A stretch of 49,235 bases of DNA from Neelides folsomi. Taxonomy: Eukaryota > Arthropoda > Collembola > Neelipleona > Neelidae. Every line of letters starts with the position of its first letter. The first letter of the stretch is position 1. The notes under the pieces are model-generated. The model was not told the DNA's origin. It did no database searches and saw nothing but the letters and a program-made list of their open reading frames with translations. The stretch spans positions 1 through 49,235 of the forward strand of contig JAQGBZ010000431.1 of assembly GCA_034687125.1 (NCBI GenBank), given 5' to 3'. The translations under genes and the position numbers were made by a program. Below are positions 2,382 through 31,900 of this stretch, piece by piece.

Positions 2382-5300
2382 TATCTTAATAATTACATTA
2401 CTAAAATACATATTACATATTTAGTATGTATATACATATTACCTTATAAGTATGTGTGTATAAAAATAATAAATTGGTAAATTTCTAATTCTTTTAGTAT
2501 AATGTAGTAATGCATAAGAATTTAAATGTAATATACAATTACATTATAAGTGGATATTTTAATAATGGTTCTGGAGTTTGGTTGAAACTTAAAGAAACGC
2601 ATAGGAAATTAAATCATTCCGCTCTGCAGCTACGTTTACAATAAAATAATAATTTTGAAATTGAAATGGCGAAATTGGCTTGCATGCGAGTGTAATAAAA
2701 TTTACGATCCGGTTTGCTTGATCAATTGATCATGCCATGTTTTCCCGGGTTGTGCATATACAGGGCTATACATAAAACAATGAATTCCATGTCCAACATC
2801 CCTCTGAGCCATTCTCAAATAAGGGAATAAGAGTGTCAATGTGAGCTGAAGTCGCTTCTGAGGGCGTAATGGGCCAATGGAGCCAAGAATGGAGGGAATA
2901 AATAAGGAGAGGATCATGGGCTTGAGAGTCTGAATGGGATATCGACAGCTGGTGGATTTGATTCCAGTCCCAAGTCACTCACGGAGGCCGGAGTCTTTCT
3001 CCCACTTCCTCCCATCCATTTCACAAGCTCCGTATCCACGCAGATATCGATTCACCGTTTAGGGAGAAATGAGAGTATGTGAATGGGACCGAAGAGGAAT
3101 GATTCCTCTTATGGGATGAATCCAGCCCAGCTGTTCTCAAACCCACCATTTAATGATGTATATAACAATGACCCTGGGAAATTTCCCATCGGGGGGAAAT
3201 CAGAGGAAAGTCATCTTGAAGAATCCTAAGATAGGCCTGAGTGCAGTTAATTACTAAGGACGTCGAGAAAGCGGCAGAGGGTCGAGAGCCAGAGCCAAGA
3301 ACCGAGAAGCGGATCTTTTAGAAAGAAATTCCTACCCTAGTTTTGAAGATACCCGGAAGATACCTCACGGGGATCCCGTTTCCGTTTCGTTCCTTCCTTC
3401 CCTCCCAAGACCTCTTTAACAGGGGCTTGGAACGGTTGTCAGTAGAATCATAATTAGAAATAAACTTTATCTCAACCCCATTTGAGCCCATAAAGAAGGC
3501 TTTGAGTTTGAAAGACTATGTGAGTCAAAGAAAATTTGGGTTGGTGATGAAACTCATTTTCCCCATTGCTCTTCCACGTGCACTTGTCTGATTGTCCTTC
3601 TCAGCTTTTCTCACTTTCAACTCTCCCTGCCTCATTTTTCCCGAGTCAAAAAAAGAATCTGCATTGCTACTTACCCTTATTACCAGATATTCCACTCCCA
3701 ACACATTCTTTTCATTAGAGAAAAAAGCCTTTTCGCGCTGCGGAAGTAAAGTGAAGGAACCCAAAGTTTATAAATCAGGACCAGAAAATTACTCAATTAT
3801 TCACTTTGAACGACTTTATAACAGCTCAATTATTCATGTCGAAACACTCAGATTAGTTTCCATAAATTCACTATTTAATTGTTAAAAGTTCCATTTGGCA
3901 AGGTAAATTGAATAACTTTATGATATATCTTTATTACCATACACAATTTAACAAATTCGACATTTAATAATTTTTTATTCAATCATTCCGATTTACGACC
4001 TCAACAAAATTGCAAATACTAATATTGTAGTATATTGCAAGGTCATAAATAGTTATATGTAACAAATGTCTACATCTCTACTTTTTGTAAAATAGAGCAA
4101 TAATTGAGGATGTGAGTTTAGCTGTTGTATGCGGAAAGAATGTAACAAATGCGGTGTCATCGGGGCTCTATTGATTTTTCCCTTCACTATACATATAAGT
4201 TAACTACATGTTTATATGTACAATTAAGTAATGCTTGACAATCTGTTAGGGTCCTGAGTTTAGAAATAAATTCCGTGGCTCAACGCCTTCTTGGCTTTAC
4301 TTTATTAATGCGGCGGAATTTTACGCGCTTTCTCAAAGTTTTACAGACTGGTTTATAATGATTCTTGGAACAACAAAAGGTGAAAGTTGTTAAACTGTCC
4401 ACTTTATTCCTCTTTTTACTTCTTTTGTCCATCCTTTGCAATAATGGGCATTTGGAGAGTTTCCCATTTCACGACTCTCGCATGATGCCGTTTGTCTAAG
4501 TTAAAAGATCAAGTGTCGAGGCGTGAAATAAGGTAAAAATGGGGAAAGACGGAGTTCTCAATGGGACCTTTTTTTAATATTCTTTATTCTTGGTACCTGG
4601 CCTCGAGGGGCAGCTGGTTGTTGGCATGAGAGGGAAAGCTGCCTTGCTCAACGAGTGAGGAAGATGAAGAGCCACTTTCTCTTTCCGCAATGTTCCTCTC
4701 CCCCCGTTGAACAAAGGAGAAGAAAGGATTTATACCAACGGATCTCTAATGAAATTTTACATGGTCCAATGAGAGATTTGAGAAGAATGGGAGGCATATC
4801 CGCCGTGAAGGGAGGGCTGAAAGGAAGACAAACCAAAAACTTTTCATTATTAACCCATACTTGGGCATGGGAAATGAGTTTGAGCTGTTGTAAGAGCAAG
4901 CAAACAAGGATTGATAAATTATTTGCATAATAAATATAAATGGAAAACATTAACGAAGACATCATTAACGACACAGTACATTTTACACAACCAATTGTTT
5001 ATTGTTTGTATTCTGCATATGTACACGCGTAGTGCACGTGTAGATTAGCTAAATGTTAAAATTTGAACTTGTTCATTTTATTTACTAGCAAAGATCAGGA
5101 GCTTAGTTCGGCTGTTAAATTTATATTGTAGATATTTAATCCGTTTACTATTTAATGCACTTTGTTCAACTCCTTTCACTCTTGAACCAAATGGGGAAGT
5201 GTGACAAAGAAAAGCATGTACTACAATATATATGATGTATATGTAAAACGTCTATTTATGCATGTACTATAATTTATCTAAATTGTTAGGACAAACCAGT

Positions 5301-8300
5301 GTGTTAAATATAATGGGGCTCATTTGTATGCATAATCCAAATTGTATGCAAAATGCATTAATGCTTATTAGATCGATAAATCAAAAATCGTTTAGTAATC
5401 TTACAATTTTCCTATGGACTTTTCTCCTGGAAATGTCAGAATAAGGCTATCAATATAAATTGCCTATTTAATTTCTGGGTGAAGAAGTTGTGGGTCTAGA
5501 GATCTCCAATGATCAATTGTCTTATATATTCATAGGACTCTCCGAGATGCATAATAATGAAGAGAATAATTTTGAGACTCGTTTTTCTCTCTTCGGAGCT
5601 GGAAATCGTGACGGTCAGGAATTTGCAATTAAACTGATCTTTAAATCTTGAATTAAACATCCGTTCCCAGATGGATGGAACGATGGGTCACATGAAAACA
5701 AAGGAATTTGATTTCCCTTCATTTATAACCTAATTTCATTCTTCCATGGCTTAAAATAAGGCTTGACATGAAATTCGTTTAATAATATGAACATGAAAAA
5801 TAATTCAAAATTCAGAGAATTTTCGTCATGTATGTTTGAGAATATATTAAAGTAATTGAAACTTCTTCCTCGAGTTTCAAAATCTATTACGTCTTTTTTT
5901 CCGTATAAATAAATTGAATAGGTTCAGACGTATTTTCGTAAATTTTTGAGAATTTTTTCCCAATTTTTCTCAACTTAAAAATACATCTTATACAAATAAT
6001 ACAGCACAGATATACATATCATGTACTAAAAATTACTCAACACGATACGATACACGATACCTACGATATGTGCAATGAGAGTATCATACTACTTATATTG
6101 ATAAATTGTTTGATATAAAATGTAGTTTGTAGTTTTATACCAATCTTAAGTGTATACATAGGTAAAGGTTTATTGCACTACACTTTGTATACAAAAATAC
6201 AAAATACTTTATTGTTAATAGTAGTAAAGTATTTTATACTTGTATAATAATATACTAGGTATATGTAGTCGATACTATTGCATACATATATTATGTATAT
6301 GGAATAGATATAAAATAAATAAGGTTTTATATTTTCATATTATTTTCAGCGCTCAACTACTGAAATCAGTGATTTATTTGGGCATTTATTTTATCAAGTA
6401 TGTATTTTTGGGTCGTTATATATCAAAGGTTATATGCTATTGTCGTCAATGATTTAGTAAGACGGAACATTTGGGTAAGTAACATAATTTAACATGAATT
6501 ATAAAGGCAAATGTTGAAAGTCGGAAAAAGGGAATGTTAAAAGGAGAAAGCCGTGCAATATGTAGGAGCACTTTTGAATCTGGCGATAGGAAAACGTCCA
6601 CAACAAACTCTGTCTTACAGAGGGATAAAAGAGAGAAAAGAAAGATAGTGGAAAGGACGGGGAGAGTGGAACTACTTTACTTACATACTTAATAACATCT
6701 AACTCGGATCTTTTAAAAAATAAAGCACATTTCCCCAACTCTCCTCCTTTCAATGAGAGCTGAAGGGTGGAGGAATCCGAAAGAGTAGTTCCCATCTATT
6801 TATGAACCTCTTGGTTCAATACTCAAGTTGTTTGAATTAGAAACTCCTTGTCCTCACCGTTCCCACCTGTGGAACCTCAAAATATTCCCACTTTTCATTT
6901 TCACTATTGCCCTATTAACTTGACTTCTTTCCATCTCCATCTTCTTATTCAAATCTTCCCATCCTAACTTGGTGGTTTTATGAACCATAATGAATAAATT
7001 CCCGTCCTCTGAACACATCATTTTTCTTTTATATTTCCTTATTTGAAATTTCATTTGCAATAATATGATAGACACAATTTCATTGTTCTACATTATATTA
7101 TCACAAAAAACATTTACAACTAAAGCAAATTGATCTAAATTGTTTAAATTGACTATGTAGGTATGTTCTTTTTAAAGTTTTAAAACCTTAATAACTCAAT
7201 TATAGGCATTTTGAAATTAAAAGTAAGCCCGACTTTCAGTAATAAAAAATAAGTTATAAAATAAATATCTATCTCATCAAGTCTCATCAAACTCATAATA
7301 ATCATAATAAACTCAAAAAAAATTTTTGCTCTATCTTTTCTTCTCTAACTTTTCTCACTTCAATCATTCGCATTGTAAATTATCTGCCATTGAGTAAAAG
7401 TTTAACAAATTTCAAAGGTATAGAATTTCTTAGTGTTTTCATATTATTTCAAAATAATTGTTTAGGAATATTGTTAGGAAGTTGCGAAGGAAAGTTAGAA
7501 CTACAGTAAGTTAGAACTGTAGTAAAAGAAATTTAGTATTTTTATATTCTATTGAGATTATGTATATGGTACATACAAATAATGTATACCTAACTAACTA
7601 TATAAGTAAAATATGATAATACATACCATAATATGTAATATGTTATACTTATCGCAACAATTCTCAAGTTATACGTACAATTATATAACATACTTAATGT
7701 AGTATATAAATATATATTTCAAAATAAAGTAGCTCAGCCATTACCAAATATGTAAGTATCTAATAGACCTAATGAGTTATTGGAGTTATTCAGGTGTACA
7801 AATTGTACCCTTTGAATAACATTATTATGAAACTAACACTCTCTCTTATTATTTGAGCAGAATCCTATTTACTCGATAACAAATATAAAAAAACTATTAC
7901 ATAAAAGTAGCAAACAAATCAAATGAAAGTTGTTATAAATTCCACAGAAATAAAATAAACAAAATAATTGGTTTAATAAATTGGTAAGTTTACGTTTCTC
8001 CCAAATCATGACTTTCTTTTTATAAGTAAATATTTGTAAATAACATAACAATACTATAATTACTACAAAGATAAAGATACTTCAAGCTCAGGCGAAGCAT
8101 TTTAATGTTACTTGCTAGCATGTTTTCAAATAAGCGATACATATATTAAGCTATTATGTACTTATTATAGATAGGTTCATTGATAGTTTGAATTAAGAAT
8201 TAAGAATGGTCTTTATTGACAGGACTTTATTGGAATATTTTTATTTCATGGTAATATCATTAAATGATTTTGAGTATTTACATTTTTTTGTATTTATGAT

Positions 8301-11300
8301 GTCTACTTGCTTTGCATGTATGATTATATCAGTTTATATACATATGTACTTACATTACTTATGTACTTATAATTTCATTTTATATGATTATTTCATTTTT
8401 TAAATTGAGACTTTTATTCGACAAATAGTTTCTGCGTCGCTACCTATAGTACCTTGACATAAAAAATTCGATTTACACATTTTGGAATTTCTTTCGTTCC
8501 AGCATTTTACTCTTAACGCCGAGATGCCTTGCGATTTTATGCTCTGTTTCTCTTACAAGATCGCGTTGTATAACGGCAATGAATTCCGGCTTAAGCGCTT
8601 TGGGGAACTTAAATGTCTAAATATTAGAATGTTTGAATACATAAATATCATGACGCCTTGTATAAATTCTGTGTCCCCTTTTTTCAAAATAAATTGAATT
8701 AGATCTACGCCCATGTTTCAATCCAACAATAAATTGATACAAACGGTCTAAAGGTTTGTTATAAAACTTTGCACTCATTTCAACACGAATTTACTAAATC
8801 ATTGCCTTAATCACAGTTTCATGGCATTGAATGTAGACAAAGTAGAAATTTGGCCAATGCATTGTTTTAACTTTTAACATTTGCACAATTTGCATTGAAT
8901 TATTAAGAGCTTGTTTTACAAAAAATGTGATTTTTATTGCTAAGAGTGACAGATTATAATTTAGAAAAGTTCACGCGAAAATTTGATATTTATAATAAAT
9001 CAAATCCCTTAAACTATACATGTATGAGAAATAACGTCATGAAAAATTGAAAGTATCTCACTGTATATAAATAATGGAAAAAGTTAAATAATTAAGCCTT
9101 TGCATCCGCTCACCTGCTATGAACACAAGGAGGGAGATGGTGAAGAAGGAAGGAAGAACTGACATCCTTCCAAATTTCCTGTTCAAAGAGTAAAAAGGTG
9201 AATCATTCATTCAACCCAATGATGAGACGTCCTTTCCCACAAATTAATAAAACATTGATGGAAATGAGGAAAAAGGCTTGAGATTGAGAGAAAGGCAAAG
9301 AATTAGACTAAATGACTTTACTTCGGGTCTCAAAGATAAAAGTGGAAGATTGATGAGGAAATCAGAATTAATTATTTTCTTTTTTGTACAATAATCGTGT
9401 GAGAAAATCCATGTGGCTTTTCTTTCTTCGCCCTCGTTTATTTTCAATTTCACCAGACATTAATTAAAGAGAGTGAAGAGGAGTTTCAGGAGCTCTACTG
9501 GTGGAGTTGAATGGAAATAAAAGGGAAATGGTGATTTATGAAAAAGGATTTCACAATGAGCCAACTTGGAACTTTTTGATCAACATGAAAGTGATTAGAA
9601 AAACTCACCTCAAGAACTAAGTCCAATGAACAGTGTAAATGTTTGACACGGTAAGCATATTCTCCTTTTTCACTATCACATACTTTTTCTATTTTTCTTC
9701 ATCTTGATTCTTCAAGTCTCCTTGAGATATTCCGCACAGAGAGCCCCAGGAGAAACTCCTACTTTTTTCAACCAGGCCCGTAAAAGTTTTTTTTGCAAAC
9801 GAGGGAATACAAGTGTGGGTTTTAAAAAGAATTTCCCTCCCAAAATGCTGCAAACGACGTGAGGGGAGTAAAGTCGTAAAAAGAAAGATGCTCTTAAAGA
9901 CTCCTATCGTTAGCTAAGGGCAGAACAATAGTTAAACGATTCTCCAATTTGTCACGGTGTTTTGTGCGGGAAGGAGGGGAACGCCGAGAAGGGCGATGAG
10001 GACACGGCAAGAGTTGGAAGCAGAATGGAAAGTCGGTCCAGGAGCTTGGGAGAGTAGAAGTCACTTCCATACAACATGAGCCCAACGCGGCTTCTCACCA
10101 CTCTCGAGGTTCAATAAAAGGAGGAACGGACACCAAATCGCCCCGACTCCTCAACCAAATAATCTTTTTAAACTTTGAGACCTGGACGATGTGCTTATTC
10201 TAATTACATCTCTCTCGCCCCTCTTCCCATCATAACATATAAAGGGGTTGATAGTTAGGATCATTTCCCATGCACAGATCATTTAGAGGTTCTTCTGGCA
10301 CAATTTCAAAAGGGCTTTTACACATCCACACCCAAGTTTCTCCGGAGGTGAGAGAAAAGGATGAACGGAATGCCAAAGTGGCTCATTAAGAAGTAAATGA
10401 GAGACTTTCTCCATTATTGACGCAAGGAGTTTTAAACTTTCTAATATATTTTGATCTCCTTTTCCAACATCTCCCAAGTTGGATTCCTCATGATATGCCT
10501 GGGTTATTGAATCAGGTTCTAGCCAAGCGTGATCAATATGATTAAGGCTTAGAATAAACATCTACCAGAGGATTTCAAAAACTGACAACTTAACTCAAAA
10601 GTCTCTCGCTAATCTCTTTAAATCCCTTTCTTGAGAATACAAATAATTGTTAGGTGGGCTCTTTTAGACAATAAACCCCTTAGAACATTATTTAAATCAA
10701 TTTCTCCAGGGTGTGGGTGTAGCAGGTAATATATTCTATGCTTTTCCATTTGAACTATGGTATTTAAAACATGGGTTGAGATACACAAGTTGCAAGTGCA
10801 AATATGAATGAATATTTAATAAAACTTCATTAATACGACAACAAATTATATATTAATAAAGAACAAATTGAAATTAAATATTTGATAATAAAACCGCTAC
10901 CTAAATTTGAGCATAGCTATATTAAATTAATAATGTTGGCATTGGGACCCCAATCCAAAACCACAAAGATCTTTAGCCCAATAAATCCACCCAAATTAAC
11001 CCTTTATTTATTATTTCATTTTCTACCTAATATTAAATTAACGGTTATTGCCAATCTATTTAATATTGTTTTCAATGCTCCAGAGAAACATCATAAAGAA
11101 AAATGATAAGTTGAAATGTGAAGCTATCAATTTTGGAAAACTAAAGAGCCTTTTTACGTTCAATCATTTTATAGGATTCTTATGAAAGAAAGAAGATCGT
11201 TTGAATTTATCTGTTTTTCACTTCTATTACTCTATTGTTCCTTCTTTGTTTTCGCGATCCCACTGCCCATAGAACCCAATTCACAAAACCGACAATAAAT

Positions 11301-12193
11301 TTCCTCTTTTCTTTCAAGCATTCATCGTTCTTTTGATAGAAATTATTACATCACTTTACCATCAAACCGGCTCTCCTGGTGTTGAAATTTGATTTATAAG
11401 TATGATTTATGAAATTTTAACTAGCTCCCAATTAATGTCACAAGAACTGCCTTATCAAAATCCTAAGGTAATAAAATATAAAATGAAATCCCCAGTGAGT
11501 TGAGTCATGTGAGTGAAATAACTCATATTTTATACTTTACTTAAATCAAATGTTGAGCAGATATGAGTAAATCCCAATAAAATTTTATTGTTATAAATAA
11601 ATATTTTTCCTTCTTCACAAATATTTGGCTACATTGCCAAAATAGACTCGTTTGGAAAAAAACAGTCTTGAGTTCCATGTCCAACATCTGGGGAAATTCC
11701 CGTAATAATGCCGGTTTAGTTAATCGAGTTTTCAATTTGGCCTTTCTTCGGAGTCAAAGTAGTAAGGAGGAATCTCACATCTAGTTAGCTCTAGAACAAT
11801 TTAGCAGGAGATTGAGAAAGTGCTGGAGGTTATAAGTTCTCACTACAACTCATTTTCTCATTTTGTGAAAGTGGGATAAAAACTCGTCCTTCACCACCGA
11901 ATCTGGCAGAATCCACCCATCTTATTCTTGACTAAAGGAGAGAATTATGTGGGGAGATATAATAAGAGAAATGCTTTCCGCTTCTGCCTTCTCGCCCGAG
12001 TCTTCCCCATTTGTACCCGCCGGGACTATAGGCCAAGATCCATACATCCATAATAGATCTCATACGGAGTGGGTCTGAAAGGTGCATCGGTGGATGTCTT
12101 ATCTCATATTTCATCCCGTGAATTATGATCCTTCAGAATGTCAATGAGAGTTTAATGCCGAGGGTAACGATTGAATTCAAACGGCAGAACATG
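2382..12193. other. Long intergenic region, no gene recognised
   Basis: About 9.8 kb alternating between AT-rich stretches (for example 5.7-8.4 kb) and GC-richer, purine- or pyrimidine-rich stretches (2.7-3.5, 4.4-4.9, 9.1-10.6 kb). Open frames here are at most about 110 codons, with no domain, signal peptide or consistent splicing. A small hairpin with 11-bp arms (AAAATACTTTA and its complement) lies near 6200-6240. I see no tRNA, rRNA or satellite array. Confidence 0.55.
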
Positions 12194-12199
12194 TTTATT
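12194..12199 (-). terminator. Poly(A) signal AATAAA of the secreted-peptide gene
   Basis: TTTATT on the plus strand is AATAAA on the minus strand, about 16 nt after the TGA stop of the small peptide gene. It is canonical and well placed but implies a very short 3' UTR. Confidence 0.6.
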
Positions 12200-12215
12200 T
12201 GGGGGGATCGATGAC

Positions 12216-12767
12216 TCAGAAAGGAGTGTCGTCGGGGGTGTAGTCGTTCAGACTCGCCCGCTTGTAGTGGAGCCCGTCTCCTGCTCGAATGCAGTCGTCG
12301 TACCTCCGAAGCAGGGCTTGTACTTGTGACCAGACATCAGGGTCGGCTCTGACTGCCCTCAGAATTTTGTTCAGAGTCGTCGGCGGCCCTCCGTCTGAAC
12401 CTGTGACAAAAGAATGAGAGATGAACCTGACGGGTTGCCACGACACGCCACGACGGCCGCCCTGATGGGACGAGTCAATCTTAATGGATCTGCCGTTGGA
12501 GGCTGAGCGAGATTTTCTTACCAAAACAATCCCTCAGACCGTGAAATGAACCTCCGCAGAGAAAGGGCAAATCAATAGAAGGAGTAAAAGGAAAAATGAA
12601 GAGAGCCATTGTCGGACAATGATATTACCAAATCTGGAGGCAGCGAGCAATGCAATTAGCGGATGAGGACCGCAGCCATCTGATCTTATGCTTATGGCAG
12701 ACCCGGCTACATCCGAGCCAGACAAACTCCACGAGCAAAGGAGAACGAGGAGGATCCATCGATTCAT
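12216..12767 (-). CDS. Putative small secreted protein, three coding exons
   Basis: I do not recognise this gene. The model joins 12629-12767, 12522-12551 and 12216-12400, giving 117 residues. All introns are GT-AG and all joins fall in phase 1, each recreating a GGT glycine codon. The N-terminus, MNRWILLVLLCSWSLSG, is a typical signal peptide. The mature part has cysteines in SDGCGPH, LRDCFG and YDDCIRAG, a helix-prone middle (LNKILRAV, VWSQVQALLRRY) and an acidic end (DYTPDDTPF). A Lys-Arg pair in HYKRAS could be a processing site. Skipping the 30-nt exon keeps the frame and gives 107 residues. A TATA box lies 144-149 bp upstream of the ATG and AATAAA follows the stop, supporting a complete compact gene. 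A neuropeptide-like or cysteine-containing secreted factor is possible, but I assign no function. Confidence 0.6.
12522..12551 (-). other. 30-nt microexon of the secreted-peptide gene
   Basis: It encodes the SFHGLRDCF segment. On the minus strand it is preceded by a long pyrimidine-rich tract ending GCGGAG and followed by the strong donor GTAAGA. Both flanking joins are phase 1, so it can be included or skipped without a frameshift. It contributes one cysteine. Confidence 0.5.
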
Positions 12768-12910
12768 CCTTCGAGCGTTAATGGAAACAAATGTCTCTGA
12801 ACCCGGGTTCTCCCTGTCTTCCCAATAAGAGTCCGGAGGAAATCAAAACTTTCTCCACCTCAAGTCCTTCCGTCGAACGAATGGTTGTGGTGGTCGGAGG
12901 GCGGTGAGCC

Positions 12911-12916
12911 TTTATA
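12911..12916 (-). promoter_or_regulatory. TATA box of the secreted-peptide gene
   Basis: The minus strand reads GATATAAAGG. A start about 30 nt downstream would lie near 12880 and give a 5' UTR of about 115 nt before the ATG at 12767. No upstream ATG-led long frame was seen in that leader. Confidence 0.5.
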
Positions 12917-13005
12917 TCAACCCTTGTCCGAGTAAGTGGGCTTCTTTAAATCAAGAAGGCGGAAAAGAGAAAATGAGACACTTGGCTCGTTACGGCAATC
13001 AAGAC

Positions 13006-13011
13006 TTTATT
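13006..13011 (-). terminator. Poly(A) signal of the synphilin-like gene
   Basis: AATAAA on the minus strand, about 350 nt after the TAA at 13360-13362. It lies about 90 bp before the TATA box of the next gene on the same strand, so the two genes are closely packed head to tail. Confidence 0.5.
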
Positions 13012-13359
13012 TCCGACTTTAAATCAAGAACTACAATTTGTACTGAGCAACTTTCCACTTCAACCTCAGGGAGCTTGAGGTCATTTGGCACCCTCCACAT
13101 TCACCTAATGACCTTCGCGGGCCAAGGAGTCCAAATTGTCAATCTTGAGCGAGTGCACGGAGATGTGTTCTTCCATGTTGGAGGAAGAGACAGGCGGGAT
13201 TGGAGATCTCTCGAAGATTGGTAAAGGATTTATAGACCATAACCTTTTAGCTCTTCGCTTAAAAGGACGAGTGCCAGGCCGTTCCTCTCCCGCTGGCACA
13301 AATAGAGGCGGCGGCCGCCTCGGTTTATGCCTCATTGTCCTCTCTTCGGACGAGGCTCT

Positions 13360-16300
13360 TTAAACAAATTGTGGACAATTACTGTCCGACTCTGCCGCAT
13401 CCACCTCTTTAGATGATTCCTCTTCGCTTTCCGAGAGCGAGGTTCGCGAATGGGATGTGGAGAGAAGGCTTTCATCTTCGTCGGAGCCTTCAACCTCATA
13501 CCATGGTTTAGGAGGTCCCCGCAGGCTCTGAATTAAAAACACCAACTTTAGACCATATTCTCCGAAATTGAATTATCTCGCCGCATATTTTCCTGCCCTC
13601 CCACATTATCCCCATTCAGATCAAACCAAACATCAGAATGAACAGTGCGCTAAAATTCATAACCTTTCTTTCTCCCTTCGATTGTAGGAAAAAATTCTGA
13701 AAGTTTGGGACTTTGAAAAGGAAAGTTACACTATTGGAAAGTTTAAAGCACCAGCTGGCTCCGTTCCACTAAACACTGATCTCTGTTCACAAAGGATTTT
13801 CCATTCAGTTGAGCTAAAAGTTGGCAACAGAAAGGAAAAAAGGCCCTCTGCATCCATAATGCTTACGATACACATATAGTCATATAGTCACTTAATTGTC
13901 TATCCGTGAATCATGGGGCACAATACACAATATAAAGGGGCCATGTCTTTATAGTTATATTCAAAATGTTATGTAAATATTTTCTTACTGTGTACATAAT
14001 ACTTAGGTATAATAACACTAAATACATTGATTTCCGTCACTAACGATAAGTACCAAATCTTGGGGAAGCGCATTAAGCGTATAATATATTATTATTTCCA
14101 TTGATATTATACAGATATAAATTGCGAGATTGTGACGCAAGGGAAATTCATATTTAATGAGTAAAAGGAATGTGTTGAGGAATCATGATTCGATAAATTT
14201 CACTGCGATTGTGAGAATTGTTTTGGGACGGCCGCGTTTAAATGCTTCGGTTCTTTGAAGTTATCAAGGAAATAGATAAATATAAATAATCACGTCTCTT
14301 GAACTCAATGTACAAGATCAACAATTTACACTACATTTAATTGTGAACAGCCGACCGGGTTCTTAATTGACCGCTTACAAGATGTTAAAGGGAAAACATG
14401 TGTTTTATAGGGCCGGTTAGGAGAAAACTCCGGAATTGAATTTAATGGTTACCTTACTCACTCGGTGAATCGGCGACTTGTGAAGGCTGATTCGAGCCGA
14501 ACGAACAAGACAATCTGTCCGACGCTTCTCATTATTTCGTTTAATTCCTCCTCCAGGCTCATCGCTCATTGATCCGAGATCCTGAATGGAGATGTCTTTC
14601 CCCGACTCAGTCTTTGATGTTTCGGAGTTGAGAGAAGCGTGAGAGAGTGGCGGGACGTTTAAGGCTGATTCTGTTCTTGATGTTTCCGAAGGGGTTGGAG
14701 ACGAGGAACGGCCGGAAGGAAGGGATGCGATAGCAATTGAAGTCTGTCTTTCCCATGCCCCTTCTTTGAGGAACAAGGCCGCTTTCATCCCGCTTTTCTC
14801 TTCGATCTCAAGATGTTCGACTTGGAAAGAGTTGAAACAATTCCCAGCTCCCTTCTCGGAACTGTCGAAACATTTGGGAGACAAAGAATTTTTTGAATTA
14901 ACAACTTCGCTCCTCGAACTTTGAGGCGAATCGTTTCCCTCAATAAGCTTCGGACTCGATTTATTTTTGGCCGAATTCCCACTATCAATGTCAACGAGGG
15001 CACTTGGCTCATTCATTACATCTCCACTCATATTTTCGCATGTCCATTCAATGCCATGTCTTCGACTCCGCTCATCCTCCGTCCCGCGAATGAGGTCAGG
15101 TGTAAAATAAACTCCCTAGTCAAATAAAAAATAACGTGTTTCCCAGTCAGTAAACAGTGAGGAAAATTGACCAAACTGTCACAAATGAAAAAAATTGAGA
15201 AATGACCTTAAATAAATTTTTTTCGGTTTCCACAGTGGGGAATGATTTGGCCTTTTCTCCAGGGTGTTTTGGCAGCCAAGGCCCAGGTTGTGTCTGTTCA
15301 AGAACATGGAACGGAGAGCTTCCTGAGGAACTTTGGCTGTTTTTCAGAGGCTGAGGAGAAAAGACGGGAAGACGAGGGGAGGAATGGAGTCGTCCCATCT
15401 GATTGAGACTTGTAGTAGGAAGCCAAGGAAGTGAAGTGGCGGTCATATGCTCCTCTCCTCTCTGCACAATTTGGGAGTTAGAAAAGGTTCATTGTGTCGC
15501 TCTGTGCAGTGGCGTAACGAGGTTAGAGGGCGGCCTGCGAGGAAATTAAGCAGATCTATAGAGAGACGATTATGCAATGAGAGGGAGATGAGAAGCCGTG
15601 GGGAAAGCCCGTTTCTCCGCACATCCCGTAGTGAGGCAGCAACAAGGAAAGGGCCAATAACTTCATCCTAATCACATTACCCCTCGAAACAGCCTCATTT
15701 ATCATGGGGCTGTATAGAAGGGTATCTGGAATTGAGGCTCGTCGCTCGCACACCTCCACATCCACGTAGAAAATGAGAAATATGGAGCCCCTTTCGGAAC
15801 ACGGGCGGTTTGCATACATTCCAGCTGAGGGATGAGCAGTTGGTGGGAGGACAAAGCTCAACATTAAAATTTTACATAAGGGGTGGAAAAGAGGAAAGCA
15901 CTCAATTATGCAGCCAGATTGACTACGCTCCCACTCCAACGGAGAAAGTGTTAAGAAAGAAGAACCTTCGGGGCTTCTCTTCCAAGCGGCTCTATGACTT
16001 CCACGACGGCAGCTTCTTCAGACTTTTCGCTATTTATGCTCCCATTCCGACCCCGGTACAATTGGCTCTCAGACCCCGACTCGCTCTTCGCTCGCCCTCC
16101 ATAATAATCTGTATACAAATTACCATCTTTCACTCCCGCAAACTCGACTCAGCGAGATGGAAATCTCCCAACGCAGAAACTCATTCGTCCTACCCCATTC
16201 AAGGCTTCGGCCTAATGGACTACATTAATGGCCGTATTATAATTTTGTATATTATGTTCCCAAATATACCTTTTCTCAATTTATTCCTCACTTGATAATT

Positions 16301-16960
16301 TTCATACACATTGAGTGGATATGCAGTTGGTGCCATTGTAGTGGAGATAGATTTTAATGCATAATAATGAATATGGCTTCTCCGTTGTCGAGAGCCTTCA
16401 TAACTTCACATTACACTTTGATTACTATTATTTAGTGATAAATGAAGGGGGCCTATGTAGAAAAATGAATCAGTAGTTAATGTACTGGGAGTCGTTTTGA
16501 ATAAAAAACCCATTTTCCGGAACCTCACTCTAACTACCCTTGTTCGGGGAATACATCTTCCAGGGGGTTTAAATTGACCTTGCGGGGTTTGATAAAAGGG
16601 TCATTAGCTGGTAGGTCACCTTTGGGCCTGTTGGGGCTCTTCACTTGAAGATGGATGTGGAGTGTGGACGAGGAAGGCGCAACCCTCAAGAGATCAAGAG
16701 ATGGGAAGTCGGGCAATTGTCGATTCCTCAGCAGTTGGGCATCGGGAGGAAGGAGCCAAGGAGCCGACGAGGAGTTGAGCAACGGAGGGTTTCCTCCAAT
16801 CCCCTTCCGGTCCTTGCTTTCATTCCGAGGTTGATTTCCTTCCTCGTCCGAGGACGAGTCTCCACTTCCTGAGTTCTCCTCTCTCTCCAAGGAAGCGAGG
16901 ATGAGGGAGGCGGCGGCCGAATTCTTATCTCTTCGTGATTGAGTAGCCCAGAGTTTTTTC
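13360..16960 (-). CDS. SNCAIP: Synphilin-like gene: C-terminal exons 7-11
   Basis: Exons 16620-16960, 15966-16147, 15207-15461, 14462-15115 and 13360-13527. The protein is Ser-, Glu- and Pro-rich. Segments such as SGSGDSSSDEEG and, at the very end, SLSESEEESSKE look like casein-kinase-2-type acidic serine clusters. It also has a Pro-rich stretch (SSPRLPVFSPQP). The TAA at 13360-13362 ends the frame. Less certain joins are exon 7 to 8 (acceptor CTCGCTGAG) and exon 9 to 10 (weak donor GTCATT); both keep frame and give continuous protein-like sequence. Confidence 0.65.
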
Positions 16961-19900
16961 CTGGAATTTCCCATTCCAATTTTATGATTATGATAAGTCC
17001 CATTTAACCATGAATTATGAATGGAGCTCAGTGGAATGTTCTCCGCGGATGAGCGGCGGATAAGAGCTATTGATTCTCCGCGAGAATATTAGACCGTGTT
17101 TAACAAGAATCTAAATGCACGAGCACCTTCGCCCCCGCCTTCATTACAAGTGCTTACAAGAGAATTTGGGGCGGCGGAGTGTTGGCCAATTCCTTCATGC
17201 TCATATCGACGGCGTAGGGCGGTGGGAGACTTTCCACACTTCGCCATGCTTGCTCAGCCCGAAGGAGCTTGTGTTCCAGCTCAGAGAGGCGAATTCCATT
17301 TGAGGATTTCCCGAGCAGAATGCCGGCTTCCAGGCATCCTTTTTTCGGAGAGGAAGAGAAGCTCTTGATCAAATCACCCCGTTCCTTTACCAGCCATTTC
17401 CCACATTCCAAGACCTCCCTGGTGACCAATCGACAGTTAATGCTCCGTACGGGCAAAGCGGGGAGAAATTCACCTGAACTGCTTCCGCAAAACTTCCCTT
17501 TCTTCCTGTAGGGCCATGAAGGAGGAAAGGAGCGAATGGAGCTGAGCACCAAAGCTCCCCGCCACTTCTCCCATGAGGAAATAATTTGAGCATTCAGTGT
17601 GACTATGGGCCCCGGCTATGTCCGACCCTCTCCATCCGAGCTCCGTCTGAAATTAGGAAGTAAAATGACATCATGTCCCGGTTCAATTGCCCCACTTCCC
17701 GACACTGTGATTATTCCGAATTGGATCTTGAAACCAACGACTCATGTTCCCAGTTAATACTCTTCAAATATCGAGAGGCTCCACGTGAACCGTGGAAATC
17801 CTCCACCACCCAGCAGATCTTTACAATACGACATGGCATCCACGGAAAGTTTCTAAATTATGGGGTAGGAAATTAACCTGTGAAAGCGGATCGGCTCCGT
17901 GCAGAATCAATTCATTGCAGATGGTAATACGTCCGGATCTGGCAGCCACGTGGAGTGGCGTCATGCCCGCCGCATCTTTCATGTCAACTCTCAGATCCCT
18001 CTCGCATAATTGGGCGCAGAGCCAAGATACAGAATCGAGGGTCCCGTACTGGGCCGCAAAATGCAGCAACGACTTTTCACCTTCCCGGGCCAGAAGCGCT
18101 TTCTCTCCACTCAGGGTGTTCTGAACGAGCCACTTGAAGCAATCCACTTGTCCCGCCTGGAAAGATCATAAAAACTCATTCCAACGACAATTGCGAGAGA
18201 GGACGGCGAAGGTGGGAATTGAGTTTAAGAACCTTGAGGGCGGTGAGGATCGGAGTTCGACCGGCTCTGTTCACGTCCGTCAATGCCGTCTCGCTCTGAA
18301 ACTCGAGAACGCCCAGGACCCATTTGAGAGTTTCGAGGTGGCCGCCGCGTGCAGAACAATGGAGCAAACTATTTCCCCTCGCGTCAGCTAAATGACGAAT
18401 GAGCGTGGAATCCAATTCTTTACAGGCTTCTTGCTACAAAATAAATAGAAACATGTCAGGGGAAATTAAACAATTTCATTGGTAGCAAATCAAACAAGTC
18501 AAATTCTAAATAAAAAGTAGCATAAATAATATGATAAACAATATGTATTGTACATATGTAGTATGACTTTAATTAATGTGTCGACAAGCTCTGAATTATT
18601 GTGAGTATAAAGAAACATTTAACATGAATGGTATTTTGAGGGGAATACAAATAATCGTAAATAAAAATTAATGTCAATACATAAAATAATATTAAAGTTG
18701 TAATAAATACTTAGGATTAAATGTCAAAATTTTAGAGATATCTTTTGAGATAGAAACCCTTTGTTGTTGTACATAAATTAAACGTAGATCCAAAGCAAAG
18801 CAAGTGTACATTATACTCTAGTTGTTTAGAATTCTAGATATTCCATTGAGAATTCTTTTTGCTAATTTACTTTGAATAAAAGAACAAACTGTTCTTTGAA
18901 AAACCAGCCAAGGCATTGAGGTCCAAACTGCTGCGGATATTAGGCATAAGGGAAAGATATTGAATTTATTTTGATATGAATTTCCCAACATCCATGAATC
19001 GAGAGATTATTCAGCTCAACTGACGAGAAAAAGAAAGAGGCCGAGGGAGGGGGCGAAGTCGTAGGGATTTTTGGCTCGGAATTCTTCTTTCTCCTTCATA
19101 TCCCTTTATTCTCCAAATAAGAAAATTATCCCGAAACATTTGAAAAATTAAATAGAGTGATTGAGTTTGGGCCCACTGTGAAGTGAAGCCGTTTGGAGGG
19201 GAATAAAGGAGGTTTCAAAAAGATTAAAATACGAACCATTTCCCTTTCTACAAGATTAATTGATTGACGGACTCTGAATTTTTCCTCATACATTTTCCAT
19301 GGGTTTCCCTCAAAAATACTCCTAGTTTGAGAGTATGGCTTACATCACTTTCAACCCGAGCTCTCTCAAACTATCTATTTCCAGGCCTCCTGGCCGTCTC
19401 GATTCCCATTATAAAATAGCGTTAGGAGCGGAATTGCACCAATTTCTTAAATTCTGATCGAACTCTCCGAAGTTCGCCTTTTTGCAATCTCCTTTCTTTT
19501 AAACCCCCATTCCTCCTAATGAGCGACTGCGGAGAAGGATGAATATTTGAGTACATTGTCCAGAATTTAAATATTAACCAGTTGTTGCAATCGTCCTTTG
19601 CGGGCCAAGAGGAAGATTTTCCAAATCCATTCCGGAGTTCGCTCTTTTGACTTTCTTCTCCGAGTTCGGTGGTCACCGGTCGAGCACCGGGGTTTCCTTC
19701 GTGGACTCGCCCCACCCGTTAATGGCTTCAACTTTGAAGGACCCATCTCTTTCTCATTCGACCCACGACTCCCATTTTGATAAAGAGAGACAGGTGTCTG
19801 GGGCTGAGGCTTGGGAGCTGCACAAGTTCCGCTAGATCTTTTCCCGCGATCCACCTCATTCCCCGATTTCTGGTGAAGTGAGAGATCCTGGACGGCCGTG

Positions 19901-20284
19901 AGGATTGAACTCGTTTTTTGGGAGGTTTTGAGGGCAAAGCTGGTTGTTCCTCCGTGTGCTCCCTCACTCATGCCGGATATTGATGAGGGTCCTGATGGGG
20001 ATTGATCGCTCTCCTTCTGCAAAAAACGGAATGACACCACCGACCCAATGAGTCTCAATGTGAAAGATTGGACGTGATGAACATCTCAACCCCTTTCAAT
20101 GAGAGAATTGAGAAAGTCTGGCCGCTACATAAATACATACCTTCTTCTTTCCCAATCCATTGTTCGGCTCCAATCCAGACACATCCAATACACTCTTGAG
20201 CTTCGGAGAGGTGATTAGGCTGGAAAATATGTTGTAAGTAGAGCGAGGTCCTCTGGTTTTCTTGGGCCCTTCATCCTTCTCCAT
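13360..20284 (-). CDS. SNCAIP: Synphilin-1-like ankyrin/coiled-coil protein
   Basis: Eleven coding exons: 20141-20284, 19579-20016, 18233-18433, 17878-18156, 17474-17646, 17158-17418, 16620-16960, 15966-16147, 15207-15461, 14462-15115 and 13360-13527. All junctions are GT-AG with matching phase, giving 1031 residues (human synphilin-1 has 919). The ATG follows an in-frame TAA. Residues 205-354 hold about four ankyrin-type repeats (GNSLLHCSARGGHLETLKW, AGQVDCFKWLV, SLLHFAAQYG, GMTPLHVAARSG). They follow the synphilin-1 order including the weak second repeat, and a helical segment comes next (QEEREVLRKQFREVLECGKW). The N- and C-terminal parts are Ser/Pro-rich and acidic. Vertebrate synphilin-1 is a cytoplasmic protein that binds alpha-synuclein and ubiquitin ligases; that partner network should not be assumed here. 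Family assignment is from remembered similarity; exon structure is read directly. Confidence 0.8.
13528..14461 (-). other. Intron 10 of the synphilin-like gene
   Basis: AT-rich intron of 934 bp, GTGAGT donor and TTCAG acceptor. I see no extra exon. A second in-phase donor lies 9 nt inside it (see 14453-14461). Confidence 0.6.
14453..14461 (-). other. Alternative 9-nt exon extension (VSK)
   Basis: Exon 10 can stop before GTGAGT (last exon base 14462) or before GTAACC (last exon base 14453). Both donors are in phase 0 and the longer form adds Val-Ser-Lys. GTGAGT is the better consensus. Confidence 0.45.
15462..16619 (-). other. Introns 7 and 8 of the synphilin-like gene
   Basis: Two introns, 15462-15965 (504 bp) and 16148-16619 (472 bp), flank the 182-nt exon 8. 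Frames seen inside them on either strand lack continuity with the neighbours. The 161-codon plus-strand frame at 15810-16295 is antisense to exon 8. Confidence 0.55.
17158..17646 (-). CDS. SNCAIP: Synphilin-like gene: coiled-coil exons 5-6
   Basis: Exon 5 (17474-17646) and exon 6 (17158-17418) join across a 55-bp intron in phase 2, rebuilding an Arg codon. They encode a helix-prone segment with heptad-like spacing (FMALQEEREVLRKQF, then RLSELEHKLLRAEQAW). Its position just after the ankyrin repeats corresponds to the coiled coil of synphilin-1. The TECSNYF motif at the start resembles the degenerate last ankyrin helix of the vertebrate protein. Confidence 0.75.
17878..18433 (-). CDS. SNCAIP: Synphilin-like gene: ankyrin exons 3-4
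   Basis: Exons 18233-18433 and 17878-18156 (phase 0 at both ends) encode residues 195-354. Recognisable ankyrin cores are GNSLLHCSARGGH, GRTPILTALKAGQ, SLLHFAAQYG and GMTPLHVAARSGR. The second lacks the TPLHxAA consensus, as the corresponding synphilin-1 repeat also does. The intron falls inside the second repeat, at LK|AGQ. Confidence 0.85.
18434..19578 (-). other. Intron 2 of the synphilin-like gene
   Basis: Intron of 1145 bp, donor GTTAAT and acceptor TTTTGTAG. AT-rich next to exon 3 and GC-richer next to exon 2. No exon or repeat recognised. Confidence 0.55.
19579..20284 (-). CDS. SNCAIP: Synphilin-like gene: N-terminal exons 1-2
   Basis: Exon 1 (20141-20284) encodes residues 1-48, basic and polar, with the stretch SLITSPKLKSVLD. 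Exon 2 (19579-20016) encodes 49-194, a Ser/Thr/Pro/Lys-rich, probably disordered segment. It ends in an RRRK-containing basic patch and then EWIWKIFLLARKGRLQQL, which leads into the ankyrin region as in synphilin-1. The 124-bp intron uses GTATGT/GCAG. A likely 5' UTR splice acceptor (ATTACAG) ends at 20324, so a non-coding first exon may lie further upstream. Confidence 0.75.
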
Positions 20285-25607: not shown

Positions 25608-25900
25608 TTAACACCAAGCTTCTGGTGGACCTGTGTAGCTCTCGTCATCACTAGATTGGCCTCCGTACATGTCGGCGAGCTTCTTAAACCTCGGCCCGAA
25701 CGTTGGAAGGTAGTCAAAGTTCAAATCGCCCTCGTCTGTGCCGGACGCAAGTGACGAGAGTGACCCCATTGAGTTCCCGTCTCCCTCGTAGGCGTAATTC
25801 CTCACGTCGTCGTAAGGAAGGCCTTGAGGATCATTGTCGACTTTGTTTTTGTTGCCCTGAAGGAAGCTTTGAATGTCGGGACCTTCGCCGTTATCTGAAA
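25608..25900 (-). CDS. shg: Cadherin last exon: beta-catenin-binding tail
   Basis: Encodes the catenin-binding region with PQGLPYDDVRNYAYEGDG, SMGSLSSLASGTDEGDL and FDYLPTFGPRFKKLADMYGG, ending PPEAWC and TAA (25608-25610). The serine cluster SLSSLAS is where casein kinase 2 and GSK3 phosphorylate classical cadherins. Two in-phase acceptors six bases apart are possible at its start. Confidence 0.92.
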
Positions 25901-28900
25901 CTGAAATGAAAGCAAATGTTATTTCCCAATCATTCATTTCAATACTAGTAATGTATTAATGTAGTTTGTAGTTGTGAAATATTTAAATATTTCCTCATAT
26001 TTACGACCTACCTCGGCCTTGACGGAGATCATCCATAGGAATTTTGTCCCCATAGGGGAGATTGTACGGACCACTCGTGGCTTTCATAAGGACTGAAAGG
26101 TCATAGCCAGTTTGGTCTCCTTCGCCACCGCCCTCGTCAGAATAGTTGATAATGTTTTCTCTGACGTCGTCGTGGGGATCGCCTTTGACTTCTTCGTAGC
26201 TCCTTCGTCGTCGGTAGAAGACGATGGTGATGACGAGAATTAGAAGGATGAGTATACACACAAGAAGGATGATAATGAAGTTCCAAGTGACTCCAAGACT
26301 GGCTTTTTGAACCAAAGTTATTGGAGAATCACAAGTGGTCACGTTCCCTAATGCGTGACTCGGGTCCCCAAGGTTGTAGTACTATCGGTCCAAATAGAAT
26401 CAAAAGATAAAAGTTGAAAAGACATCCATCAATTAACAAGTCGGCCTAACTTCCCAATTCCCATTCCCCTGCTCACCTCGCCATTGAAAGTCAAGTTGGA
26501 GATGCAGCCGTAGAACTTTTGTCCAGTTGGAACATCCGCCCATCTCATTTTCGATTTGATTTCTCTTGGGTCAAACGAGAGCCCGCCGAGTTGAAGTGGA
26601 CTGTTCACATTGAGGAACTTTGAGGACCGTTCAGGCAAAGGAACCTTAGTGAAACAATTGTCTTCTCTCCTAAGACACTCTCCAACTTGAAGGGAAATTT
26701 CCTACAAAGACAAACGCCAATTGTAACAATTTTTCTCCTTACATTAGAAAGATGAATGAACATTTTATGTAAATTTTAAAGTCTCACAGAGGAATTCCAC
26801 CGGACTGAAAGTTGATATGGTCTTCCGTCATTCAAACGTGGAGATTTGGATTCAACTTGAACGGCGTAAACCCCAGAGCCAAAATCCATTAAAATTCTTG
26901 GTCGTCCATCGAGAATTTCAATTGAAATAAAATCTGGAAGGTGATTTAAATATTGTTTGATTATAATCTCCTGGTTTTATTATTGATGTCATTTAATTAA
27001 TTTAGAATGCTTGATATTTTAATTAATAAAATAGGAAATATCCGAGGAAAAATACCTGTAATGTTGAGGGCATTTAAGTAGGTTGGTCCATTGTAGAGAA
27101 TTATTGCATTACTCTCATGTGTGGCAACATCAAGTTGGAGTAAAGAGTCTTCGCAAACAGAAAGCGGCTTATACCAAGCCCAGCCTTCCCCTTCAAACGA
27201 AATCGAAGTCTTTTCACATCTTGGTCCTTCAAATCCATCAGGACATTGGCATCTATAAATATTAAAATTTGATTACAATCTCTCAATTTTAAATGTGAAA
27301 TTAAAGGTATGGAAATGAAATATTTAAATGAATAGAATTCAAAAATTAAATTAAATGAATAGAATTAAAATCTTACTTGAATCCTTTGATGCTTGGGGCT
27401 GAGTGGCAAGCTCCGCCGTTTAAACACGGGTTTGGAATACAAGTTGATGGAACAAGTTGATGGGCACAAACACAAAACGGTGCAATGAAGGCGTTGACTC
27501 CAACAAATGAAGAAGTGTTTGTGTAAATTTGATAAGAAATGTCGTACTTTTCCAGTTTATTTGTACAAGACCCGCATTGGAGTTTCTCACTTATGCACTC
27601 GTCAATTCGAATCATGACAATGTTGAGTTGAAGTTCATGTTCCAACTTGGCTTTCCTTTCAGCAATTAGTCCTTCCAACTTCTCGGATCTGTAATAAGGA
27701 GATCCATGGGCCGAAAACCGAACGTCAACAATCGACTTGTCCAATGTTTGTGGAGAGTTGTTTACAGTGAAGATGTCAACGTTGTCTTCGGGTAATTGAA
27801 AGAGTTGGGCAATGAAGGTCCGCAGTTTGTCTTTTTTACTCCGCCCGGTTTTGTCTGGAATGATAAACTGCTCTTTTGTGAGGCCCATAAAACGAATAGA
27901 CCCTGAGTTGTCCACGGCCTCGTCCGTAATCTTCTTAACTGTTACATTTACACCTGCATGGACAGTCAGCTCATGTCTATTGTCCGTAACGAGGAAGTTG
28001 AGTCGATAGGTTCCATCAGGAATTAGAGGTGACATCATGATGTTCCCCAATTCAGGATCAATTGTAAAATGCGTGCTTTGTTCTTTTTCAAATCTAAACT
28101 GTTTGTCAGGCAAATCCCAATCGTCAGGATCTTCAGCGTAAATGCGGCCAATGTTGAAGGGCTTCTTCTCTTTGTAATTGTAAACAAAGATTTTGCTTTC
28201 TCCAGGCTTCATCGGATTGTCGTTTTCATCCCCAATAATAACATTAAGAGTGCTGGTTCCGGTTTTTGATGGAGTTCCACTGTCAGAGATCAAAATCGGA
28301 ACCAAATATTCCTTTCGTTCTTCTCGGTCAAAATCGTTCTTATTGGCGTATAATTGAGAGCCTCTTATTACGAAGCTTGATCGAATTACAGGTTCGGCTG
28401 AAGGATCAATTTCAAATTTAAACGGCGGTCCATTAATCGAAGAATCGTAATCATCGGCTGTAAGCTGAACGATCATCCCTTTTTGGATGTTTTCTGGCCA
28501 AATTACCGGACCTGATACATTAAGGAACGGAGCATTATCGTTGATGTCAGTGAGAGTTACGGTGAGATCCACAAAACTTGTGAGCTTTCCGACAGTTCCC
28601 CATTGATCGTTGGCCCCGACAAGGATTTGAACCCATGGATGTCCAGAGGTGCCTTGATCCCGATCGAGTGGTTTAATTACTCGAACACACCCATCCCGAT
28701 CCACTGAGAACGAGTCTTCCCTCTTCTTGTCAACAAAGAAGGAAATATTCTGTGGGAGGGACCGGTCTGAGATATCTGGATCGTAAGCTCGGAGTCTAAA
28801 AATGCATTGTTGGGGGATGCTTTCCTCCACGATTGTCACGTTCTTGTCCATTTGCTCGAACACAGGGGCTTCGTCGTTGATGTTCAACACGGTAATTTCA

Positions 28901-31900
28901 ACCTTCGTCTCGGCTTCGTAGAGAGAATCAGAAACTCTCACCGTCAAGTCATACTACAAATTGAATGATAATTAAATATATGCATTTACAACAAATTAAA
29001 AGTTATCGGTTTATCAGTATTATTAAAAAAAGATTAATTTTAATTGAAATAATCTTTGTTAATTATTGCATAATTTGTTTAAATGTAAATAGTCCATAAA
29101 TACAATATTATAATGTAATTTAATATAATTGAATATTTTATTTGTTCTCACCTTTCGAACTTTCTCATAATCAAGTTGTTCATTAATGGTAATAACACCA
29201 GCTGAAGATTGTGAGTCAATGGCAAATACATTTCCAATGTTTCCCTCTACAATGCTGAACTTGAGGGTTGAAGATTCTGAAATTTAAAATATAAAAAATG
29301 AATATCTTCCACTCCAAATGGCTTATGGTCAAGTCGAAGGTAAGAATAAAAGGTGGTAAAGGCGGATTAGATCTTTTTTATGAGGGGAGCTTTGTGGTCA
29401 TCAACGTCTTTCCAAAGCTGAAAGCCGAAGAATTCCCAAGGTAAAGAAGGATCTGGTAAGACCAAGACTCACTCAACCCTCTTGAGATCATTTCACATTT
29501 TTTTCATCATTTATATCCATAAATCAGATTTAGGTCCAGAACTCATTTCATTAATCTCTCGGTCCCCTAAGTCTCTCTGGTGGTATTTTTCACGCTTCTG
29601 TCAGAGTCTCCCTCTTCTTGAACCACACCTTCGTTCTCCCCCTTTCCAACAACCCTTCTGCGAAGATCCTCCCAATAGCCAAAGACCTTCTTTATGCACA
29701 TCCAACGATCCGAGAGAATTCCAATGTTAAATTATTATAAATGTGGAGGTCTGTCAAGTCATTGGGAATGCATCTTGGAGATGTTCGTGCTAAAATGGTG
29801 AGGATGGGGAAGGAAACAAGAAATGCACCTGTTTCAAGAATCCTCTCTTATCTCTGGCCAAGGCGTCGTCTTGGAACGAACCTTTAGAGATTTTCTCAAT
29901 ATTTGTACGATTGCTATCAGTTCATCAGCATTCGGTTGGTGTAGAGGAAGTGAGAGACATTTCTCGACAATCTCTTGAGAGGGAACGAGTTTACGAACCG
30001 TCTACTAATCTTATCGCCATGAATATGTCACCTCGATGGAAAAGGACTCAATTCCACCATTTGTTGAATAATAGAGGAAGGGGTGGGAATACACGGGATG
30101 TTTTATAGGAAGAGGGTATTAAATGAATCGCTCTCCCCCGCTATCTAGAAGACTTTCCAATGGATCTCTTCCGTTGGCCACCCAAGTCAAGCCGCAAAAG
30201 TTATAATAAAAGCGAATGAAATAACTCTCTCCTTTCAACCGTCAAAACCCTGAGAGTCTGCATGTAGGGAGAAGGGCGAGGAGGAGAATAAAGAAACGAA
30301 ATAAATCTATATACGACTGAATCTCTTGACTGCATTTAAGAAACTGAGCCCCTAACTTTTCTTCGAATCTCATATCTTCAAATAACTTTGTTGGAGTTAA
30401 AGTGAGTGGAAGACATTTTCCAGGGGACACTTGTGCGACATTCCTAACTATACTATAGGTAGTTTATATGTCTTGTCGAGGGAAAACAAAGTTTAAAGTT
30501 CATTCGCTCACCTTTATCTGTGTCGGTTGCCCGAAGTTCAATTACTTTGCTGGCAAGATTGCTTCCTTCTGCGATTTCAGCTTCATACAAACTCTTGACG
30601 AATTTGGGTTCGTTGTCGTTCTTGTCAGCAATCATGATCCTCATCACTTGCGGTCCTGCAATCATTTCATTAGAGATGATCAATAAAGATAGCTCATTTC
30701 CATTTTTAACTCATGATTTAGGAAATTAAATGGAGAATGTTTAATGGCATTTGGAAATGACATTACGTTCATTGTGCTTTCCATCTTTGGAGAGAACGGC
30801 TGGAGCTCCATCGCGAGCAAAAACTGTAATCTTGTAAGTGTCGAGCTCTTCACGATCAAATGATTTTTGTGTTCTGATGTCGCCAGAAACTTCGTCAATC
30901 ACGAAATTCTCTCTGTCTTCTTGGCTCAAATAATACTTCACCTGTTAGAAGGATCAGATTCATGATCAAACTCATATCAATTCACTTTTACATACAAACT
31001 TTGAATTGAAGATGAGTTGAGTTGAAATCTAAAAGCTTGGCACACTTACATCGTTGTTCGGATAAGTTCCGTCAGTGTCAATGGCTCGTACTCGCATCAC
31101 AAGAGTTCCAGGAGGCTCGTTTTCTAAAACGGTGCCCGAAACCACTTCCGAAAAATATGGCTTCTCATCATTTTCGTCTTTTACCCGGATTGTTATTGAG
31201 ATCTCACTCGCCAAGTCATATTTGTTCTGAAAGAAAAAGTAAAGCCGCCTTTAAGCTTTCAATCCTCAACCCTCTCACCATTCAGAGATGAGACGGGGAA
31301 AAGACATCCCCTTTCAATCTCCACTCTCATTCCAATTTCATTCCGCTCTCTTCCTTTTTATTTAGAAAACTTATTTGTAAAGAACCTGAGAACCGAAGCT
31401 CCCAATGAGCCAGTTTTTCTCTCTTTTTCACTTTTATAATCCATATAATATATTGCTATATATACAATATTGAGTTCCCTATTAATTTACTGGCTTCATT
31501 GAACAGTCTCATATACCTCATAAACTTAAGTTAACATGGGTAACATAATGTATCAAGTTTCATATCAAGTCTCTAGTGTAAGGTTAAATAAATGAAATTA
31601 ATTTTTTTACAAAATGATTCTCGAGAGGCAAATATTTATACATGAAATATAATATTTACATATGGTACATGGCAAGAGTTTTGTATACTTTATGCACATA
31701 CATAATGTAATACAAGTAGTTTAGAATATTAATGAAAGAAACCTAAAAATTCGAGCTATTTGGTAAATCGGTAAGTATATGATGTAAACGTTGGTTAGCA
31801 TATTATAAAAGTATTGAACAAAATTAAACTTTAAGCTTCTCAAACTTTTGAGTTGCTAAATTTTAAATTATTTAGAAATTATTCAACTTTTTGTTAAAGC

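Follow-up and report, generated by a model that had tools for sequence, protein, structure and literature searches.

A probable springtail orthologue of synphilin-1 (SNCAIP) in Neelides folsomi

Synphilin-1 (SNCAIP) was named for alpha-synuclein and has been studied through it, and the two are known partners in Parkinson's disease. Drosophila is not known to have a clear synphilin-1 homologue. Fly studies express human synphilin-1 (PMC8099903, PMC9977059). In vertebrates, the protein is described as a potential adaptor whose coiled coil is proposed to form a dimer (PMC3527391), and a report on the mouse knockout describes loss of ependymal cilia, disordered microtubules and a lower level of HSP60 (PMC13116186). 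Among invertebrates, a putative SNCAIP orthologue has been reported in the sea slug Aplysia californica, in which SNCA was not found according to the same report (PMC8840921), and a second source states that no synuclein orthologue was found in invertebrates (PMC4832246). The Aplysia gene is comparable with the one presented here in being likewise an invertebrate SNCAIP, a likeness that is drawn from the published report and not from sequence (PMC8840921). A literature search on synphilin combined with Collembola found no report.

The gene described here lies on a 49,235-nucleotide stretch of the springtail Neelides folsomi (contig JAQGBZ010000431.1, positions 1 to 49,235), hereafter the window, to which all positions refer unless another contig is named. 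Judged from its sequence, it very probably represents the synphilin-1 family in this springtail and is probably the orthologue of SNCAIP. The gene model consists of eleven predicted minus-strand exons separated by GT-AG introns, which run from 20284 down to 13360 in a single frame. The predicted coding length is 3066 bases (1021 residues plus the stop codon), from an ATG at 20284 to a stop codon ending at 13360, and there is no inner stop. The first-pass annotation, made from the letters alone, had proposed eleven in-phase exons with exactly these two limits, and the open frame and GT-AG borders agree with it. The features are as follows.

Exon 1, 20141..20284, minus strand: residues 1-48, with the start codon at 20284; the N-terminus aligns with both springtail relatives (Orchesella dallaii and Allacma fusca, see below).
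Exon 2, 19579..20016, minus strand: linker and RTPEWIWKIF lead-in before the ankyrin block.
Exon 3, 18233..18433, minus strand: ankyrin repeat 1 and the beginning of the degenerate repeat 2; identity to the relatives 64% and 57%.
Exon 4, 17878..18156, minus strand: remainder of repeat 2, then repeat 3 (spacing of 37 residues) and repeat 4.
Exon 5, 17474..17646, minus strand: final ankyrin-like repeat and initial part of the coiled coil.
Exon 6, 17158..17418, minus strand: remainder of the coiled coil, followed by the sequence beyond it.
Exon 7, 16620..16960, minus strand: Ser-rich acidic tail with the APWLLP motif; donor at 16620 picked for phase, the frame being open to 16537.
Exon 8, 15966..16108, minus strand: VVEVIEP motif; identity to the relatives weak, 19-23%.
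Exon 9, 15207..15461, minus strand: identity to the relatives weak, 17-26%.
Exon 10, 14453..15115, minus strand: motifs PDLIRGT and SPTPSETSRTESAL, wholly or nearly conserved in both relatives.
Exon 11, 13360..13527, minus strand: PWYEVEGSDEDE, acidic Ser-rich end and stop codon.

The absence of inner stops, of which 1021 random codons with like composition should contain about 57, has to be read knowing that the exons were picked for openness: their borders were placed via GT-AG sites and phase, a choice that favours open exons. The least certain border is the donor of exon 7, since it was picked by eye, among the few that were viewed, to carry the phase into exon 8. The predicted protein contains the ankyrin block that had been recognized in it earlier (Pfam Ank_2, 3.1e-19), and the composition of its last 56 residues, with 13 Ser and 14 Asp/Glu, agrees with the acidic Ser-rich end that had also been described.

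Two springtail proteins stand out in a protein search with the predicted protein: P0001 of Orchesella dallaii, which carries the UniRef name Synphilin-1 (398 bits, 60% identity, 86% of the searched core), and the unnamed P0002 of Allacma fusca (380 bits, 51% identity, 98% of the searched core). The next match among those listed scores 146 bits. Both relatives, which are themselves gene predictions, align end to end with the window protein, beginning at the first methionine and reaching the acidic end, with whole-alignment identities of 39% and 42%, although the window protein is shorter (1021 residues, versus 1481 in O. dallaii and 1403 in A. fusca). All eleven exons fall against both relatives in the global alignment, with per-exon identities from 17 to 64%: exons 3-6 reach 47-64%, and exons 8 and 9 are the weakest, at 17-26%. 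The start, the exon 10/11 junction and the last exon are concordant with both relatives, and the tail blocks APWLLP, VIEP, PDLIRGT, SPTPSE and PWYE follow one another in identical order in the three proteins.

The weak identity of exons 8 and 9, together with an exon 7 donor picked for phase, is what would be expected if the synphilin core were real and the joined exons belonged to two adjacent genes or included a wrong middle exon. We consider this unlikely; against a split into two genes stands the fact that both relatives, predictions though they are, carry the N-terminus, the core and every one of the above tail blocks, in the same order, within a single protein.

Names in the databases add little beyond the Orchesella entry. 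Among the 120 of 163 matches listed for the window protein, only that of O. dallaii is named synphilin, many of the others being nameless. The search with the three-springtail alignment (48 matches, after scoring the 7983 candidates richest in shared words) brought no further synphilin name, and the search with the Orchesella coiled coil (512 candidates) returned two matches, the query itself and Allacma. No vertebrate-named synphilin appears among the matches listed in these three protein searches, in which many matches are nameless. The same is true of insect proteins named synphilin, whose absence from the matches listed, again with many nameless, carries little weight. Folsomia and Orchesella cincta are absent from the named matches listed, though both were expected. 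Since the Orchesella protein already bears the name Synphilin-1 in UniRef, the finding is less new than the first-pass annotation had assumed; the gene is a new member of an already known family.

The N. folsomi assembly comprises 840 contigs with 75.1 million bases. A search of it with the core, in which 131 of 152 candidates were scored, yielded 30 matches: five lie inside the gene and 25 elsewhere. None of the 25 extends beyond query position 207, which corresponds to residue 380, close to where the coiled coil begins; hence, among the assembly matches listed, the coiled coil is found once.

A UniRef name is no test of family identity, and therefore the core of human synphilin-1 was compared directly. 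The ankyrin letters of the human sequence used are presumed to be those of the protein; the coiled coil is the part that was matched to a database sequence, being the same as PDB 2KES (molecule Synphilin-1) in 46 of 46 residues. This core also matches PF16700, with an E of 9.9e-23. Among 166 proteins, its best single alignments are those with the three springtails (104, 101 and 99.8 bits), followed by an espin at 74.3 bits. When whole-sequence scores are used, which sum over many repeats, long ankyrin proteins occupy the best 20 rows of the 166 and the springtails fall outside these, a ranking that speaks against the synphilin-1 reading.

The profile of the three springtail cores gives 120.7 bits to the human core, over nearly its full length, and no more than 50.4 bits to any of 163 other ankyrin proteins, decoys that were drawn from the springtail searches and not from the human proteome. 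With the human coiled coil alone shuffled the score is at most 99.9, and 0 of 500 shuffles reach 120.7; with the ankyrin part alone shuffled it is at most 20.5 in 200 trials. Taken by itself, the human coiled coil obtains 20.5 bits with the springtail profile, versus at most 13.4 in 2000 shuffles, none of which is as good. The spacing of the repeats, measured between anchors picked by eye, is 35, 34, 37 and 33 residues in the human core and 38, 35, 37 and 33 in the window protein, and in both the window protein and the presumed human sequence the second ankyrin repeat is without the usual TPLH. The degenerate second repeat noticed earlier is confirmed, and the irregular spacing is like that of the human protein.

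A tree with other ankyrin proteins, which the first-pass annotation had asked for, was built on the ankyrin part and places human synphilin-1 and the three springtails in one group with a support of 99/96, using 60 of the 163 decoys (those best-scoring with long matches) and springtail slices about 18 residues longer. The group is present in 99% of 200 bootstrap trees, in a bootstrap that is not yet settled. Human synphilin-1 shares with the springtail proteins the order and spacing of the repeats, the degenerate repeat 2 and a coiled coil directly behind the ankyrin block, and differs from them in a core identity of about 29-33% and in a tail with no detectable similarity.

Ankyrin repeats are also found in espin, in ANKRD44/52 and in the ankyrins, and an unrelated ankyrin and coiled-coil protein might resemble synphilin-1 through generic repeats alone, an explanation that would agree with the higher summed scores of long ankyrin proteins, with the unmatched PF16700 in springtails (see below) and with a tail different from the presumed human one. 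It is nevertheless very improbable in view of the gap between 120.7 and 50.4 bits, which sets human synphilin apart from the ankyrin proteins tested, the 0 of 500 coiled-coil shuffles scoring equally high, the irregular repeat spacing common to the human and window proteins and the tree support of 99/96. For the core, springtail profile, shuffles, spacing and tree all uphold the original proposal of a synphilin-1-like gene in an arthropod.

The coiled coil expected behind the ankyrin block stands as a region homologous to the human one, as judged by the two series of shuffles (0/500 and 0/2000); its heptad-like period is weak in the window protein, where 64 of 1000 shuffles are as strong. The period is similarly weak in the human protein (79 of 1000) and clear in the springtail relatives (6 and 2 of 1000). 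PF16700, the alpha-synuclein-binding domain, is matched by human synphilin-1, but no springtail protein of the three matches it even with E allowed to reach 10, and a PDB search with the springtail coiled coil, as sequence or as profile, did not reach 2KES. We take PF16700 to mark the partnership with synuclein and not the family.

PF01387 (Synuclein) has no match in the assembly, a silence that proves nothing because 14 control genomes are equally silent. That the springtail protein also partners a synuclein-like protein, in a partnership as old as the family, would agree with the conserved position of the coiled coil, the synuclein-binding part of the human protein according to the name of the Pfam model, but is extremely unlikely with PF16700 unmatched, no Synuclein match in the assembly (a weak point, the control genomes being as silent) and no invertebrate synuclein orthologue found according to PMC4832246.

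The tail behaves differently from the core. Compared with the presumed human tail, the three springtail tails score no better than many shuffled versions (74, 154 and 165 of 200 shuffles score equally high), and the suggestion that an acidic Ser-rich tail is a mark of the family fails at this point, the likeness being at shuffle level. A possible tail homology, suggested by eye from SPTPSE and a presumed human SPSPTSE, was dropped, as its scores were no better than those of shuffled letters. Old constraint is visible in two parts, ankyrin block and coiled coil, and not in the tail or in a PF16700 match.

Concerning the age of the family, the proposal that it is older than its synuclein role, already made in the first-pass annotation, is supported by the present gene together with the published reports (PMC8840921, PMC4832246). 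It is not new, because a putative orthologue without a synuclein has already been reported in Aplysia (PMC8840921).

Since ankyrin block and coiled coil are what springtails have conserved, we infer a self-pairing cytosolic scaffold, with a role related to protein quality control and the cytoskeleton. Springtail synphilin would be a cytosolic adaptor whose ankyrin block holds partner proteins, whose coiled coil may pair two copies and in this way lead to self-assembly of the protein, and whose Ser-rich tail may contain sites for regulation. If the vertebrate protein is a guide, it could take part in protein quality control and in the upkeep of microtubules and mitochondria, and its action would not proceed via alpha-synuclein, of which no invertebrate orthologue was found in print. 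As a whole, such a function as a cytosolic, self-assembling adaptor, drawn by analogy, may hold or fail with about equal chance.

In a broader form, synphilin-1 may go back to early bilaterians as a self-assembling adaptor for cytoskeleton and protein quality control, which alpha-synuclein joined later, at the coiled coil, in vertebrates, and which was lost toward Drosophila; we find the case for this evenly balanced. If it is true, springtails would be animals without synuclein in which the ancestral function can be seen. A full-length hexapod member offers a place to study the function of synphilin-1 where alpha-synuclein is not known, and the fly work with human synphilin-1 (PMC8099903, PMC9977059) could be compared to a hexapod relative.

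A degron-like motif for SIAH (PxAxVxP) is present in none of the three springtail proteins. The SIAH family is that of seven-in-absentia, and the Sina_TRAF (seven-in-absentia) domain is found at one locus of the assembly (C9:580233-580598, minus strand), which consists of two adjoining pieces, one of them read with an inner stop, perhaps at an intron border.

Finally, the window shows further features around the gene. Directly downstream of it, within a stretch of 0.50 GC, lie two minus-strand open frames (12219-12842), one of which has a methionine followed by a hydrophobic stretch resembling a signal peptide; neither frame has a Pfam match at E up to 0.1. On the other side, at 25611-33688 of the minus strand, are pieces of a DE-cadherin-like gene, which contain, besides cadherin repeats, the Ig-like domain of DE-cadherin (PF24811, 1.3e-35), laminin G (2.5e-6) and the cytoplasmic cadherin tail PF01049 (1.5e-27). 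Among the seven pieces of this gene compared with Pfam, 33338-33688 stays under the cut-off, and neither 26004-26381 nor 27000-27272 has a match above one. The GC content per kb is 0.38-0.50 in 12001-20000, which comprises the synphilin gene and its downstream side, versus 0.24-0.37 in 5001-12000, and it also rises up to 0.42 in parts of the cadherin gene.
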